Source: Ignavibacteriota bacterium
Lineage (GTDB): Bacteria > Bacteroidota > Ignavibacteria > Kapaibacteriales > UBA2268
Assembly (NCBI GenBank): GCA_020437395.1
Contig: JAGQWJ010000001.1
Coordinates: forward strand, 120,699-184,698
DNA length: 64,000 bases
Reading direction: 5' to 3'
Translations under genes and position numbers: made by a program
The notes under the pieces: model-generated
The model's database searches: none
What the model was told of the DNA's origin: nothing
The model's input: only the letters and a program-made list of their open reading frames with translations
Shown: one piece after another, positions 3,272 to 36,730 of the stretch
Numbering within the stretch: the first letter of the stretch is position 1
How the letters are laid out: each line of letters begins with the position of its first letter

Positions 3272-4423
3272 CTAGTCTATAAACTCGATTTTGATGTAAG
3301 AGTTATTTACGTCACATGATTGAAAATTCCAATTAGTGTAATGACCTAAGCAACCATAATTTGAATATATCTGATTCTCTGATGAAATCATTGCATTTAG
3401 CTCTTTATAGAACTCAAATATTATATTCTCACTACTCAAGCTATAAGTTACTGATTTTTCGAAGTTAAACACCAAAAACTGCGATTCATCATGAAATCCA
3501 TATATATTACCAGTCCTTACATTAGATTCTTTAGTTAATCTAAAATTGCTAATAGTTTGATTCAAAGTGTCTATATCAAATTGAATCTTATGCTTATCGA
3601 AATTGTATTCATCTTCATTTTTATAATATTTCACTAGATTTACTTTACCATTTCTTATAACCAAAGTATCAATTAAAATCTCTGTAATGTCATTACTACG
3701 GGTATATTTTATTTCTGGATCCTGATGTACTTTTATGCTATAATCCGAAATATAGTTTTTAATAAATAAAGTCACCCTAATATGTTTTCCATCAAAAGCA
3801 CTAGTTATAGTTGACATATCCAACTCAACAACGGTATCCTTTGTTAGAGCTTTGGTATAGTAATTCTTAGGTTTGAAGCCATCAGAGTAGATAGTAAAAC
3901 GATAGTCAAATTGTGATTGTACTTCGTTTTCTTTTACCAATGAGCTGGGTGAATTAGATGAAGATAGTAGCCGTATATCTTGTCCATTGCTTGGTGTATT
4001 TTTTACAAAAGTTTGTGATTTGTTTCCTGTTCTAATAGCATATACACCTTGGGGTAAACCTGCAACATTGAGTGATACATTTCCTGAAATTACGGTTGAA
4101 GATTTATAGTGGACTTTGCCACTAATATCGGAGACTACTAGTTCAGAACTATTAGTATTGATGTTTAGAATATCTTCCACAGGGTTAGGGTAGAGCTGTA
4201 AACTATATTCATTCGTCTGCTCTTCTACCGAGCTTACTGTCTCGAAGAAAAGTGAATCAGTTAAGTATAGCTTCTCTTCACCAGTATTCATATCGTGGAC
4301 TAATATGCTATCTATTGGTAATTCTTCATTATAATACCTATCCATTGCTACAAACTTAATGGAATGGGACCAGAGGGGTGAAACTATGAGTAGAAACGCG
4401 AATATGATTAATAGCTTTTTCAT
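3272..4423 (-). CDS. Secreted protein with internal T9SS type A-like domain (tandem paralogue B)
   Basis: 383 residues. A signal peptide (to about SHS, residue 21) is followed by a short beta domain (about 22-70), then a complete sorting-type module at about 77-141: LYPNPVEDILNI, DISGKVHYKS, LPQGVYAIR. About 240 more residues follow, whereas true T9SS sorting domains sit at the extreme C-terminus. The first 203 residues match the upstream neighbour at about 180 positions; the rest is strongly divergent until the shared last nine residues (SYIKIEFID). Its ATG shares one base with the upstream stop (TAATG), implying translational coupling. Function unknown; an exported or surface protein is the safe reading. 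Confidence 0.7.
   Translation of the reverse strand: MKKLLIIFAFLLIVSPLWSHSIKFVAMDRYYNEELPIDSILVHDMNTGEEKLYLTDSLFFETVSSVEEQTNEYSLQLYPNPVEDILNINTNSSELVVSDISGKVHYKSSTVISGNVSLNVAGLPQGVYAIRTGNKSQTFVKNTPSNGQDIRLLSSSNSPSSLVKENEVQSQFDYRFTIYSDGFKPKNYYTKALTKDTVVELDMSTITSAFDGKHIRVTLFIKNYISDYSIKVHQDPEIKYTRSNDITEILIDTLVIRNGKVNLVKYYKNEDEYNFDKHKIQFDIDTLNQTISNFRLTKESNVRTGNIYGFHDESQFLVFNFEKSVTYSLSSENIIFEFYKELNAMISSENQIYSNYGCLGHYTNWNFQSCDVNNSYIKIEFID
3815..4423 (-). repeat. Conserved 5' module of tandem paralogues, copy B
   Basis: This 609-base segment encodes residues 1-203 of paralogue B. It is nearly identical to 4972-5580, with long exact stretches (for example around 3815-3880 against 4972-5040). Similarity drops abruptly at the codon after VELDM. 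Confidence 0.8.
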
Positions 4424-5580
4424 TAGTCTATAAACTCGATTTTGATGTAGGATTTGGCTCTATCAAAGGAACCAAATGAAGTGAAATCGAAATGACCTGG
4501 ACAATTATAAGAAGTAATTTCTTCTCTACTATAATTATGCTCGAAATCGAATTTATCTAAACTAATTAGGAGAAAAACTCTATTACCATCATTATAATCA
4601 ATTGAATTAGCAAAAGAAAAACTATAATTCAATTCATCAACATATGATTTAGAATCATCATTCTTAAAATTCCGATAATTATTGTTATAATTCATATTCA
4701 AAATTGTTTTATTCATTGTATCTATCAAGAAATCTAATTTATTCGAATGATACTTAGAAGTTCCTTGATTCTCTTCTTTATAAAATAACTCGATTTTATT
4801 ATTTCTAATTACTATTGAATCCTCATATTCAAAGCTTCTATCTTCAATTTCATTTTTATAAATATAGTTACCTTGTGTGTAATGAGAATATGAAGAGTAT
4901 TTAACATCAACATCTTTCAAATAAATTTCAAAGCGCATCTTGTTACCAAAAAGAGAAATACTATTGGCAATCATATCCAACTCAACAACGGTATCCTTTG
5001 TTAGAGCTTTGGTATAGTAATTCTTAGGTTTGAAACCATCAGAGTAGATAGTAAAACGATTGTCAAATTGTGATTGGACTTCGACTTCCTTTACCAATGA
5101 ACTTTGTGAATTAGACGAAGAAAGTAGCCTTACATCTTGTCCATTGCTTGGTGTGTTTTTTATAAAAGTTTGGGATTTGTTTCCTGTTCTAATAGCATAT
5201 ACACCTTGGAGTAAACCTGCTACATTGAGTGAGACATTTCCGGAGATTACGGTCGAAGATTTATAGTGGACTTTGCCACTAATATCAGAGATTATTATTT
5301 CAGAACTATTAGTATTGATGTTTAGAATATCTTCTACTGGATTGGGATAAAGGTGAAGACTATTTTCATTCGTCAGCTCTTCTACAGAGCTTACAGTCTC
5401 GAAGAAAAGTGAATCAGTTTGGTATAGCTTTTCTTCACCAGTATTCATATCGTGGACTAATATGCTATCTATTGGTACTACTTCTTCATAATACCTATCC
5501 ATTGCCACAAACTTAATGGAATGTGACAAGAGGGGTGAAACTATGAGCAATAATGCGTATATTAATATTAAGTTTTTCAT
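4423..5580 (-). CDS. Secreted protein with internal T9SS type A-like domain (tandem paralogue A)
   Basis: 385 residues and the first gene of the two-gene unit with 3272-4423. Same layout: signal peptide, beta domain, sorting-type module at about 77-141 (HLYPNPVEDILNI, DISGKVHY, QGVYAIRTG), then a variable region from residue 204 on rich in Asn, Tyr and Asp. The variable regions of the two copies still share a C-x-GH spot (NCPGHFDF here) and the identical tail SYIKIEFID, so they are diverged versions of one fold rather than unrelated domains. Function unknown. Confidence 0.7.
   Translation of the reverse strand: MKNLILIYALLLIVSPLLSHSIKFVAMDRYYEEVVPIDSILVHDMNTGEEKLYQTDSLFFETVSSVEELTNENSLHLYPNPVEDILNINTNSSEIIISDISGKVHYKSSTVISGNVSLNVAGLLQGVYAIRTGNKSQTFIKNTPSNGQDVRLLSSSNSQSSLVKEVEVQSQFDNRFTIYSDGFKPKNYYTKALTKDTVVELDMIANSISLFGNKMRFEIYLKDVDVKYSSYSHYTQGNYIYKNEIEDRSFEYEDSIVIRNNKIELFYKEENQGTSKYHSNKLDFLIDTMNKTILNMNYNNNYRNFKNDDSKSYVDELNYSFSFANSIDYNDGNRVFLLISLDKFDFEHNYSREEITSYNCPGHFDFTSFGSFDRAKSYIKIEFID
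4972..5580 (-). repeat. Conserved 5' module of tandem paralogues, copy A
   Basis: This is the partner of 3815-4423. By eye about 180 of 203 encoded residues are identical, and most differences lie in the signal peptide and residues 32-97. Confidence 0.8.
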
Positions 5581-5663: not shown

Positions 5664-6776
5664 CTAATCCCTAGGTATATTTCTATCGTCAACTTTTGTT
5701 GAGGTTTTTAGCTCATGGTTGAAACGAAGATCGTAGTAATAGTCGGCTTTGGGTAGTGGTATTACCATTGTTCCTGATTTGTCAACAAATCCAACTTGCT
5801 CACCATCAACAACCCATGCAAGTCCGTTTTCTCCAAAGCTCTCGGCATAGTCAAAATTCTTACTAAACAAGAATTGACCTGTAGAGTCTATATATCCCCA
5901 TCTGCTGCCGTACATAACTACTGCAGCACCATTTCTAAAGCTCTTAGCGTGATCAAACCGAAAATCAGTTATCTGCAAACCCTTACTGTCTAACATTGCC
6001 CATCTCATCACATAATTATCATCATAGAATCCAGCCATTGTTCTGTCTTCATTCATATTATAAGCCTCATCATAGATTTTTTGAATAGTAACAACACCAT
6101 ATTTATTTATGAAACCAATTTTACCAGTAGCAGTATCGGCAACTCGAGCTAATCCATTGTTAAAATTTGAAGGGATATCTAATATAAAATCGATAATCTG
6201 GTTCCCTTCTTTATCGATGAACCCAACTTTATAATTATCATTAGAAACTGCTGCAAGACCTTCGCTGAATGCGTAACCGACAATATTCTCATCAAGTGGA
6301 ATAGCTATTTTTCCAGATTGATCTATATAACCACGTTCACCGTCTTTCATAACATAAGCCAGTCCTTCGCTGAAACTCAAAGCATCTCTATACTGAATTT
6401 CTTTGAACACCTTACCTGTTGAATCTACGTAGCCAAATTCGAACATTTCTTCTTCGGGGTTGACGGGATTGAAAATAACAGCTTTACCTTCATTGAATGG
6501 AACGCCCTGTTCAGCATTTGTCCTAATTTTTATTTTGCCTGTATTGTCAAAATACACCCATGTCAGTTTTCTATCAAGAATAACCTGAGCTCCAATTAGC
6601 CCTTCTGAATAACCACCAACATCAGTGATTCCACCAGCCCTAAACATCTGTTTACCATCGGAATTGATAAATGTCCATTCCTGCCCTTGTTTATAAGCGA
6701 CCAAGGGAGTTTGTGCAAATGAATCAAAAATAAATAAAGCAAATATTGAAATTAGTAGTGTAAATTTGAGTTTCAT
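5664..6776 (-). CDS. WG-repeat protein, exported
   Basis: 370 residues with a signal peptide (ending about SFAQ, residue 22) and at least six WG-type repeats, seen as recurring W/F/YG-F/Y-I/V-D-x-x-G units such as GYIDQSGKIAIPL, GFIDKEGNQIIDF, WGYIDSTGQFLFS and VGFVDKSGTMVIPL. WG-repeat proteins form beta-propeller-like binding scaffolds, and their partners are mostly unknown. A Bacteroidota-type -7 element lies upstream at 6851-6859. There is no sorting domain, so a periplasmic or inner-surface location is more likely than T9SS export. Confidence 0.85.
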   Translation of the reverse strand: MKLKFTLLISIFALFIFDSFAQTPLVAYKQGQEWTFINSDGKQMFRAGGITDVGGYSEGLIGAQVILDRKLTWVYFDNTGKIKIRTNAEQGVPFNEGKAVIFNPVNPEEEMFEFGYVDSTGKVFKEIQYRDALSFSEGLAYVMKDGERGYIDQSGKIAIPLDENIVGYAFSEGLAAVSNDNYKVGFIDKEGNQIIDFILDIPSNFNNGLARVADTATGKIGFINKYGVVTIQKIYDEAYNMNEDRTMAGFYDDNYVMRWAMLDSKGLQITDFRFDHAKSFRNGAAVVMYGSRWGYIDSTGQFLFSKNFDYAESFGENGLAWVVDGEQVGFVDKSGTMVIPLPKADYYYDLRFNHELKTSTKVDDRNIPRD

Positions 6777-32853: not shown

Positions 32854-34416
32854 GTGGTCAATGAAATCCAATATGCTCCAACCTCACCCGAGCCAGAGTG
32901 GATAGAACTATATAATATTACTGATAATGATATAATCTTCGAGAAATTTACAGTCGCTGACTATGCAACTACAACCGACCCAATCACATTAGAAATACCA
33001 GCTTATGGATTCATAGTAATAACAGAGAAAAAATCAGAGTTGCTGAAAATATACGACATTGACTCATCTCTTGTTATTGAATCAGATTTACCAACTTTCA
33101 ACAATACTGATGATTTGGTGTTAATTGCTAATAATGGAAAGATGATTGATTCAGTTAAATATAACTCCAAATGGGGAATTAAGGGTAATAGTCTAGAAAG
33201 ACGAAGGTACTTCGAGTTTGAAAATGACTCTACTAATTGGGGAGCTTCTGAGGTTTCTGGTACTCCAACGAAAATCAACAGCATAGCTGCCTATTATGAT
33301 TTGGAAATTATAGATGCTACATTAGTACCGGCAGGATTTCGCATTATTCTCGAAAATAAAGGTAATATCACATCTTTGCAGGGGAGAATAGATTTAGAAA
33401 TAAATGATAATTTGGTCACTTTTTACCAAATAGACTCAATTGCTGCCTTTTCAGATAAAGAAATCATTCTAGACCAAACAATTATAGGATATACACCTAA
33501 GATTAAAGATAAGTTGAGGTTTATTGTAAAGACCAATGAAGATATAAACATACACAATGATGATTTCACAATATTCGTACCTAACACAACTTCAAGAGGC
33601 GACGTTCTCATAAATGAGATTATGTACAATGTAGATGATGATCACTTCGAATTCATAGAGCTTTATAATAACTCAGCCGTTGATGTCCAAATTTCAAATT
33701 GGTCAATTGCAGATGAATTGGACATAAAAAATAATCGCTTCAATCAAATAATAACTAATATCAATCTAAAACCTGGTAACTATGCAGTTATCGTATGTGA
33801 TGACGCTATTTATAATTTAGTAGATGAGTCTTCGAATGATAAGATACTCTTCACAAAGAAAAAATTTAGTTTAAATAATAGTTCGGATATTATAAATTTA
33901 TACAATGAAAATAAAGAATTGATTGATTCGGTAGCTTATCTCGATTCTTGGCATGAGGACTATCTAAGTTCAACAAAAAACATAAGCTTAGAGAAAGTTA
34001 GACCATCATTATTAAGTTCTGAAGCTTCAAATTGGAAAACCTGTACAAATGAAAATGGCTACACAATATTGGCAAGTAATAGTTATAATAACAATCTGTC
34101 ATCAAAGAATGAAATAAGCGTTGTACCTAATCCATTTTCACCTACTTCATCAACTAAGCCATATATCTTAATTGAGTACAAGCTCCCTTTTGACAATGCA
34201 TTAATCGATTGCAATATTTATTATCCCAACGGTAATATTGCCTTTAATTTGACCAAATCGAAATTTGTATCGGGCGAAGGAACTTTAACTTGGAACGGCA
34301 GAAGTTTAGACAGCAACGTATTACCAGTTGGTCCTTACGTAGTGATGATAGAGGCAACTGACCAATATTCTGGCGAAAGCAAAACCCTTAAAACGGTAAT
34401 AGTATTAGCCCAATAA
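32854..34416 (+). CDS. Lamin-tail-domain surface protein with FlgD-like C-terminal Ig domain; start uncertain
   Basis: At least 520 residues. Two lamin-tail (LTD) domains are seen: VVNEIQYAPTSPEPEWIELYN at the start and GDVLINEIMYNVDDDHFEFIELYN at about 248. The end is a FlgD-Ig/T9SS-type module: VVPNPFSPTSS, IEYKLPFDNALI, TLTWNGRSLDSNVLPVGPYVV. Export is therefore expected, yet the GTG at 32854 leaves no signal peptide. The frame stays open back to 32773 and encodes KYIVFFLATQLIGRV just before the LTD, a good signal sequence, but there is no ATG, GTG or TTG ahead of it. A rare start (ATC 32794, ATA 32803 or ATA 32815) or a sequence error is implied. Confidence 0.75.
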   Translation: MVNEIQYAPTSPEPEWIELYNITDNDIIFEKFTVADYATTTDPITLEIPAYGFIVITEKKSELLKIYDIDSSLVIESDLPTFNNTDDLVLIANNGKMIDSVKYNSKWGIKGNSLERRRYFEFENDSTNWGASEVSGTPTKINSIAAYYDLEIIDATLVPAGFRIILENKGNITSLQGRIDLEINDNLVTFYQIDSIAAFSDKEIILDQTIIGYTPKIKDKLRFIVKTNEDINIHNDDFTIFVPNTTSRGDVLINEIMYNVDDDHFEFIELYNNSAVDVQISNWSIADELDIKNNRFNQIITNINLKPGNYAVIVCDDAIYNLVDESSNDKILFTKKKFSLNNSSDIINLYNENKELIDSVAYLDSWHEDYLSSTKNISLEKVRPSLLSSEASNWKTCTNENGYTILASNSYNNNLSSKNEISVVPNPFSPTSSTKPYILIEYKLPFDNALIDCNIYYPNGNIAFNLTKSKFVSGEGTLTWNGRSLDSNVLPVGPYVVMIEATDQYSGESKTLKTVIVLAQ

Positions 34417-36669
34417 TCATTTGTTGACTATCGCAAATTTAACAACTTGAGTGCTTTCGTTAGTTGAAGAAACTGCATAGAGCAAATAGACACCAGGTGA
34501 AGCATCTTCGCCTCTTTCATTTTTTCCATCCCAAGTCGTTTTTCTACTATTAACTTTTAGCGACCTTACTAACTCACCGTTTACAGTAACTATTCGTAAA
34601 TCGGAATTCTCCGCAAGACCTTCGATTGTTAAAACTTTGTTTTTTCTTGTGTCGAAAGGTTGTGGATAAACTTTTACATTAAACTCATTTACTGGTTTTA
34701 TTGCATTCGTCTGAACACTATAAAGTCCTTTGTCCGTACCCACATAGATTTTACCAGAATTTTCGTCATAAGCTAAGGCATAAAGATTGTTCGTAGGCAA
34801 TGGACTATTATCAGTTGTAATTGTATGGAGAACATTCTCACCATCGGGATCAACAACAATAAGACCACTTGCTGTTGCTATCCACTTATTATCTAAAGCA
34901 TCGACTACTATTTCACGAACATTCAGATTAGCAAGAGATCTGACATTCACAAAAATTGGTGTTCTATTACTCATCACAGCACTTGGATTAATTATCCTAT
35001 TAACTCCACCGATAGTACCTAACCAGAGAGTGCCTTGTTTGTCAAATGCTAATGCTTGTTGATTGTTACTAATTATATCTGAGTTGTTGACTGTAAACAT
35101 ACCGCAAACATCGTCGGAATTATCTGTCAAAGTCCTCATCTCATTATAATATGCTAAGCCTACTGCAACCTCAGTCCCTGAGAAAGTAACATCAGTTCCT
35201 GCTGAAGCAACCCATTTTGTACCGTTGAAATCAATAGCAGTTTTGTACAAAACCCTCCTAGTAGAACCAGCACAATTATATAGAGTTTCGTAGTTACCAG
35301 ATGGTGTTCTGATAACAAACAATGGTCCGGAACCACTATTTCCCCAATTGACAATCCACATATTACCGAACTCATCATCGAATACATCTCCGGTAATAAC
35401 AAAGTTACCGGAACCACCTGTGCCAACCAATGGACTGTTTTCTGCACCAATATTTTGAATATATTTATTCTCCCCAGGTGGTATCAAATATAATCCCCCA
35501 CCATAAGTGCTAGCAGTGATAGTACCATCTTTCAATTCATTCACATTTATAACACTATTAGCAAGAAACTCAGGATTTGTGCTCCTGTTATAGTAATCCC
35601 ATTCACCATTTTTGAAGCTCATAACTCCATTACCAGTGAAGTTACCAGTACCTATCCAAAGAGAGCCATCATCTGAAATATGGATATGGGCTATACCGTT
35701 TGAAAGTGGAGAATTGGGCTCTATTGTCATAATAGTATCTTGTAACGAAGCTTTCAAGCCAGATTTTGTTGCTAAATAAATATTATCGTTATTGGAGTCA
35801 AATTGAATATCGTTTATTTGCTCACTAATTTTGATTAAGCGTTCTTCAAACGGATATTCTCTTATATCTTTTTCTCGGAAGTAAAATAGCTTTCCATTTT
35901 TAGTATCTAATCCGAAAATATCTTTAGTTGGATATTCGAAAACGGACTGTAAATATTCGCCATTCCAGCTATAAATACGGTCGCCCGAAGTAGCATAAAG
36001 TGAATCGTTCACCCATTCAATATCAATAATATCTGCATCGTGGAAGGATTCAATAGGCGTTATTGTCTTCCAATCATCCCTATTTGCGAGACTATTATCC
36101 AAATCCGTATAGACTACTCCCGCAGAAGTCGCAAGCCAGATTTTATTATCATGAATTTTAATTGTTCTTGCTTCTGTACCAATAGTCAAATCCGAAAATC
36201 GCTTAACGTCTTCTATCGTAACATTATTCTTGTGATCAAATACAACTAATCCAAATCCACCTGCAATATAGAGTTTATCACCTATAGGCACTATACTGTT
36301 AATATTTGCTTTTACGAAGCCAGCGTTTTCTATATCGTGAATAGCTTTCCACTCACCATCTTTATATATGTCGAAAACCCCGTCATTATAGCCAACGAAG
36401 ACTTTGTTCGATTCTTTCTGATAGGTAATATACTTCGCATCAATCCTACTCAGCCCTGTTACATTGGTGAATTGTTGAATCTCATTTGAGTTCAGATCTG
36501 CAAAATAAACACCACCACTAGTTGCAGCGTAAACTTTGTTTTCAAATTGGTATAGGGAATTGACATTGTACATTGAAGTATATGCCTCCCAATTGGTGAG
36601 CTGTATTTCTTGTGAATAAAGGTTAATTGCACATAAGGAAACAACTATTAATGTTAATAATCTGAACAT
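34417..36669 (-). CDS. PorZ-like T9SS beta-propeller protein
   Basis: 750 residues. After the signal peptide (ending LYSQ, about residue 19), WEAYTSMYNVNSLYQFENKVYAA begins a long series of propeller blades of the two-component-regulator-propeller type, with repeated V-Y-A/V-A-T-S/K-x-G-V/L units (KIWLATSAGVVYTDL, NIYLATKSGLKASL, KIYVGTDKGLYSV). The end is a sorting-domain-like fold (VKVYPQPFDTRK, TTWDGKNERGEDASPGVYLLY). Length, two-propeller layout and C-terminal fold match PorZ, which helps attach A-LPS to T9SS cargo at the surface. The TTG start at 36717 is rejected for the ATG at 36669. It may be co-transcribed with ribH. Confidence 0.7.
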   Translation of the reverse strand: MFRLLTLIVVSLCAINLYSQEIQLTNWEAYTSMYNVNSLYQFENKVYAATSGGVYFADLNSNEIQQFTNVTGLSRIDAKYITYQKESNKVFVGYNDGVFDIYKDGEWKAIHDIENAGFVKANINSIVPIGDKLYIAGGFGLVVFDHKNNVTIEDVKRFSDLTIGTEARTIKIHDNKIWLATSAGVVYTDLDNSLANRDDWKTITPIESFHDADIIDIEWVNDSLYATSGDRIYSWNGEYLQSVFEYPTKDIFGLDTKNGKLFYFREKDIREYPFEERLIKISEQINDIQFDSNNDNIYLATKSGLKASLQDTIMTIEPNSPLSNGIAHIHISDDGSLWIGTGNFTGNGVMSFKNGEWDYYNRSTNPEFLANSVINVNELKDGTITASTYGGGLYLIPPGENKYIQNIGAENSPLVGTGGSGNFVITGDVFDDEFGNMWIVNWGNSGSGPLFVIRTPSGNYETLYNCAGSTRRVLYKTAIDFNGTKWVASAGTDVTFSGTEVAVGLAYYNEMRTLTDNSDDVCGMFTVNNSDIISNNQQALAFDKQGTLWLGTIGGVNRIINPSAVMSNRTPIFVNVRSLANLNVREIVVDALDNKWIATASGLIVVDPDGENVLHTITTDNSPLPTNNLYALAYDENSGKIYVGTDKGLYSVQTNAIKPVNEFNVKVYPQPFDTRKNKVLTIEGLAENSDLRIVTVNGELVRSLKVNSRKTTWDGKNERGEDASPGVYLLYAVSSTNESTQVVKFAIVNK

Positions 36670-36730
36670 TATTCGACCACTCTTATTTTTTTTATTTTTT
36701 TTAAACCTTAGTAACAATTACTTATAAGTA

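Follow-up and report, generated by a model that had tools for sequence, protein, structure and literature searches.

Two tandem genes of an Ignavibacteriota bacterium, P0002 and P0001, encode predicted exported proteins that carry a complete type A T9SS sorting domain (CTD) in their interior, with some 240 residues behind it. Judged by its sequence, this internal module is a real relative of the sorting domains, and it is under purifying selection. The explanation that we favour, with about an even chance of being right as a whole, is that the module derives from a T9SS sorting domain of type A and that the fold has been reused here as a constant internal Ig-like scaffold or docking domain.

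The window, meaning the whole stretch of DNA that was analysed, comprises 64,000 nucleotides of a genome of 2.94 Mb. An earlier, sequence-only reading had placed the pair at 3272-5580 and the module at residues 77-141 of both paralogues, and the open reading frames and the profiles agree with these positions. The parts of the two genes are the following:

4423..5580, minus strand: P0002, the upstream paralogue, a predicted exported protein of 385 aa (ORF), with orthologues in the genus genomes G002 and G003
5521..5580, minus strand: P0002 signal peptide, residues 1-20, without a lipobox cysteine (read from the translation)
5353..5520, minus strand: P0002 residues 21-76, beta-rich N-terminal segment and linker, conserved in the genus, with no Pfam match
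5158..5352, minus strand: P0002 internal type A sorting module, residues 77-141 (PF18962 E 1.9e-10; TIGR04183 33.5 bits), the PF18962 genome match C48:125856-126050
4972..5157, minus strand: P0002 residues 142-203, end of the constant half (..FTIYSDGFKP..VVELDM), 90-97% identical between the paralogues
4426..4971, minus strand: P0002 residues 204-385, the variable tail, which ends in SYIKIEFID and shares about 23% identity with that of P0001
4421..4425, minus strand: TAATG stop-start overlap coupling P0002 and P0001, kept in all four genus genomes (also in G001, G002 and G003)
3272..4423, minus strand: P0001, the downstream paralogue, a predicted exported protein of 383 aa (ORF)
4364..4423, minus strand: P0001 signal peptide, residues 1-20 (read from the translation)
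4196..4363, minus strand: P0001 residues 21-76, beta-rich N-terminal segment and linker
4001..4195, minus strand: P0001 internal type A sorting module, residues 77-141 (PF18962 E 7.2e-11; TIGR04183 37.3 bits)
3815..4000, minus strand: P0001 residues 142-203, end of the constant half
3275..3814, minus strand: P0001 variable tail, residues 204-383, a predicted antiparallel beta domain (AlphaFold)

The hydrophobic N-terminus of P0001, MKKLLIIFAFLLIVSPLWS, recognised by eye in the translation, is a putative Sec signal peptide, from which export through Sec seems likely; the putative signal peptides of both proteins are without a lipobox.

PF18962 (Por_Secre_tail) and TIGR04183, both of them models of the type A T9SS sorting domain, are the only profiles that score above cut-off in the two proteins, with E-values of about 1e-8 to 1e-11. 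The first covers profile positions 1-71 of 75 in both, with 42.7 bits in P0001 and 41.3 bits in P0002 (cut-off 27 bits), and the scores of the second also lie well above its cut-off of 23 bits. The module is followed by 242 residues in P0001 and by 244 in P0002, and thus does not occupy the extreme C-terminus. The type B models TIGR04131 and PF13585 match neither protein, and profile searches of both full proteins gave no second sorting domain of type A or B. A profile built from 113 terminal CTDs of the window genome itself recognises the modules, with E-values from 1e-10 in the window to 3e-18 in the G001_e copy. When compared with the PDB, the G001_e module finds the CTD of 8GLJ (E 5.5e-6), which is labelled as a Por secretion system C-terminal sorting domain and was solved in the T9SS translocon, and the family profiles find 5JVK, the mirolase CTD 8QB1 and 8GLJ/8GLK. 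The positions that specify the fold, YPNP, D..G and L..G.Y, are invariant in all six full-length members of the family. The module therefore has the motifs of a type A T9SS CTD (these three and F.K), in a host that also has a T9SS, and differs from it by its place at residues 77-141 and by the replacement of the beta7 lysine in five of the seven copies.

The predicted fold may point in the same direction. Structure prediction, which the sequence-only reading had proposed as a check, gave for P0001 a low-confidence AlphaFold model (full-length pLDDT 52, and about 58-67 over most of the module region) with seven strands between residues 74 and 141, consistent with the seven-strand sandwich of type A CTDs. 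The highest Foldseek probabilities of this full, low-confidence model are those of 8gl8_D (0.96) and 8gl6_D (0.89), the translocon-bound CTDs of the T9SS substrates RemZ and RemA, and the next match is the DUF3244 structure 3sd2 (0.84). Ig-like folds are often alike, and this last resemblance could be taken to mean that segment 77-141 is no more than an Ig-like domain of the common kind, without relation to sorting domains. This is very improbable, being contradicted by the profile comparison, where only the two sorting-domain models exceed their cut-offs and the terminal CTDs of the same genome match to E 3e-18, and by the best PDB sequence matches, which include known T9SS CTDs. The claim of a complete type A module inside both proteins, with about 240 residues behind it, has thus held, and neither of the two results that the sequence-only reading had set against itself, an unrelated Ig domain or a second sorting domain at the true C-terminus, was obtained.

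Such a position is rare. A census of the DNA around each of the 150 PF18962 matches of the window genome, measuring how far behind the model's end the stop codon lies and allowing for any unmatched end of the model, placed 148 of them within 8 residues of the stop codon (median 2); the two internal ones are P0001 and P0002, with 238 and 240 residues to the stop. All 89 PF18962 matches are terminal in G258, a single-contig genome of a distant Bacteroidota from another family of the phylum. At two other loci, L056 and L046, a weak CTD-like stretch (profile E 8e-5 and 0.03, respectively) precedes a normal terminal sorting domain by about 60 residues and is possibly a degenerate duplicated CTD. 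As for the secretion system itself, PorZ is encoded at window 34417-36717 (NF052228, 350 bits) and PorU elsewhere in the genome (789 bits). The own C-terminal sorting domain of this PorZ is weak (18.7 bits, below cut-off), and a 520-aa ORF with a GTG start at window 32854-34416 has no signal peptide and a C-terminus that looks, by eye, like a FlgD-Ig-like sorting tail, and the start assigned to it may be wrong.

The family is present at the same place in all four genus genomes examined, which are the window genome, G001, G002 and G003, and in each of them it adjoins the same WG-repeat-like gene. In the window, this neighbour is a predicted exported protein at 5664-6776 with a WG-repeat look (by eye), and its presence beside the pair in the four genomes perhaps indicates a functional link. 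Because the three other genomes share the architecture at the same place, we regard as practically negligible the explanation that the internal position is an artefact, where a lost stop codon, a frameshift or a misassembly would have fused a short CTD protein to the next ORF. The tandem arrangement of the genes and one frame-split copy in G003 could suggest it, but the frame is open through the module-tail junction in seven copies from four genomes. Six full-length copies have this junction in common, and the seventh, the one of G003, crosses it as well, its frame being split later, within the tail; the second copy of G001 is interrupted by the end of its contig. In orthologue comparisons, dN/dS stays below 0.3 on both sides of the junction, with values of about 0.07-0.2 for the module (comparisons with finite dS) and of 0.22-0.29 for the tail.

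A sharp break at codon 204 separates the homogenised N-terminal 203 residues from the differing tails. Between P0001 and P0002, identity over residues 21-203 is 90-97% by segment, with 79% in the 14-residue linker (residues 63-76), the least conserved part of this constant half, vs 23% over the tail (204-372), the last 11 residues being again 82% identical. The P0001 tail is 64% identical to that of G002_b and the P0002 tail 43% identical to that of G002_a, whereas the N-terminal halves are closer within a genome than between genomes, dS over residues 21-203 being 0.2-0.35 between the window paralogues and 0.7-3.6 between genomes. Gene conversion that acted on the 5' half and the very 3' end, and spared the distinct tails between them, is the best explanation for these sequence patterns. 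The tails seem to have been exchanged too, since the order of the tail types is opposite in two genomes (the upstream copy is type a in the window genome, G000, and type b in G002) and in the split G003 copy two tail types seem to be joined in a mosaic, with the frameshift where they meet. Modelled alone by AlphaFold, the P0001 tail is predicted to form a single antiparallel beta domain of about eight long strands (pLDDT mostly 60-84). The structure search gave no confident fold match for it (best E 4e-3, TM <0.32, with weak barrel-like matches to YwiB, PsbO and OmpX), and a search of 387 further genomes of the class and of a sample of the phylum gave no convincing relative of the tail beyond the genus. 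A marginal, partial tail match in G567 (E 3e-4) was discarded, as it lies in an ordinary protein with a terminal CTD. That residues 21-76 and 160-203 form a split carboxypeptidase-regulatory-like domain holding the module is no more than a guess, the spliced segments having no Pfam support.

According to the sequence-only reading, sorting domains are recognised and cut at the extreme C-terminus, so the module cannot work in the usual way. The module is indeed internal, and no terminal CTD follows it, but "cannot" is too strong, because short C-terminal extensions are tolerated in published work, namely His tags after the CTD of PorU, PorZ or PPAD (PMC11285876). Neither PorU nor PorZ tolerates having its last residues replaced (PMC11285876), and in RgpB the deletion of two C-terminal residues blocks export, while the last 22 residues are enough in fusions (PMC5445135). 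PorU, in turn, cleaves known cargo just before type A CTDs and not at the end of the protein (PMC5445135, PMC11285876). A terminal position of the CTD is the rule, but may not be a requirement. In the translocon structures, the CTD lies within the pore of SprA and against PorV, its conserved motifs specify the fold and not the contacts, and a single near-invariant lysine touches PorV in all of them (PMC10994853); this beta7 lysine is near invariant in working CTDs (PMC10994853, PMC11285876). It aligns at Thr138 of P0001, and the position is Thr or Ala in five of the seven copies (both of the window, both of G002, and G003_d) and Lys in G001_e and G003_c (HKF.K). Terminal CTDs of the window genome have Lys or Arg at -4 to -7 in 92% of cases. 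The argument that the lysine offers against sorting is nevertheless weak and suggestive only, since terminal CTDs without the usual lysine exist (8% in the window genome, and some in G258, such as ..HQFIKR) and the window copies keep a lysine at residue 135.

The search for further proteins with an internal module, which the sequence-only reading had suggested, was successful within the same class. FISUMP proteins with internal sorting domains are known from Bacteroidota; a first sample contained none, and in a wider one PF18962 was internal in four proteins from further genomes of the class (L347, L348, L352 and L355, of families f12, f17 and f21), a number from which no frequency of internal modules follows, as these loci were picked by FISUMP matches. 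Like the genus family, the FISUMP proteins L347, L352 and L355 and the related L348 have an N-terminal beta-rich segment, an internal PF18962 (34.9-39 bits) and an unrelated downstream part. They differ in what follows the module, which is fn3-like and FISUMP domains in L347, L352 and L355 and a tail with no assigned domain in L348, contrary to the genus-specific beta domain of P0001 and P0002, and in the K-K/R that they keep in the last strand. A signal peptide is seen in L348, L352 and L355, and the start of L347 lies outside its locus. By hhalign, the flanks of these proteins do not match those of the genus family (probability 0.1-2.3%), whereas the linker just before the module does align between the two sets. 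As the flanks are unrelated, a sorting fold in an internal position, followed by a varied C-terminal part, has emerged, or been retained, in two or more settings within the class.

In the explanation that we favour, P0002 and P0001 would be Sec-exported three-part proteins, made of an N-terminal beta-rich segment, an internal CTD fold and a C-terminal beta-rich domain. The CTD fold, probably folding as in the terminal CTDs, would have been kept as an internal Ig-like domain that is most likely no longer a canonical cleaved C-terminal tag, its sorting role presumably lost. Labour would be divided between the constant half common to both paralogues, of which the module would be a conserved scaffold or docking part, and the tail, which would carry what differs between P0002 and P0001. 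We favour it because internal PF18962 matches are so few (2/150) while the fold positions are invariant and the dN/dS of the module is low; because the terminal-CTD profile and the best Foldseek matches tie the module to T9SS substrate CTDs; because the beta7 lysine is replaced in most copies, vs the 92% Lys/Arg of terminal CTDs; and because internal modules also occur in a second set of proteins of the class, where flanks and tails are unrelated, as would be the case for a reusable fold. Against it, conservation of the module is on a par with that of the remaining constant half, and the G001_e and G003_c modules keep the lysine and score like good terminal CTDs (62 bits), all of which would also be expected of a working signal; the low confidence of the full-length model speaks against it too. 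Overall, the evidence suggests that reuse of the fold of the tag as a building block is more likely than a tag working with cargo behind it. Among the three options of the sequence-only reading, the plain Ig-like scaffold fits best, a different export logic is possible but less likely, and nothing in the sequence points to a cut that would release the downstream domain.

The module could instead be a working T9SS signal in an inverted substrate, where the constant half, made up of the signal peptide and residues 21-203, would carry a variable cargo, placed C-terminally behind the signal, over the outer membrane by way of SprA/PorV. The module is strongly conserved within a constant half that is homogenised, and the tails that follow diverge; this would fit, as would the presence of a T9SS, the sequence match to the translocon-bound CTD 8GLJ, the lysine kept in two copies, and the K-K/R of the FISUMP-type modules. 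Even though the tolerated His tags also speak for it (PMC11285876), such extensions amount to a few residues, vs a 180-residue beta domain here, and the replaced lysine and the terminal position of the 148 other matches of the window genome and of all those of G258 make this explanation possible but rather unlikely. Somewhat less probable still is the corresponding view of the constant N-terminal half as an export cassette, whose working internal CTD would bring a variable, folded C-terminal domain over the outer membrane, so that T9SS cargo could stand on either side of the signal. We consider it quite unlikely that the module marks a cleavage point, where PorU or another protease would cut the linker 63-76 after export and so part a short N-terminal peptide from what follows, the module and the tail, or cut after the module to release the tail. 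PorU is present, its known cuts lie just before type A CTDs, and this linker is the least conserved part of the constant half, but the N-terminal product would have only about 45 residues. To our knowledge, PorU has no sequence consensus, so that no cut is indicated by the sequence of P0001 or P0002, and cleavage on the C-terminal side is not known to us for any CTD.

No description of internal CTDs was found in the open-access literature searched. A close known case is that of PorU, PorZ and PorA of Porphyromonas gingivalis, where the CTD is likewise kept in the mature protein, in PorA in one of two surface forms (PMC7712824, PMC11285876). The CTD is thus not always a discarded tag; contrary to P0001 and P0002, however, the CTDs of these proteins are still C-terminal.

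Wherever a sorting-domain profile matches, the domain is annotated and the protein counted as T9SS cargo. If internal modules are reused folds, such counts take in proteins that are not cargo, and the module reveals which part of a CTD stays once sorting is lost. If, on the other hand, internal modules still sort, the belief in an obligatory terminal signal would be wrong, and the translocon must take a polypeptide on both sides of it.
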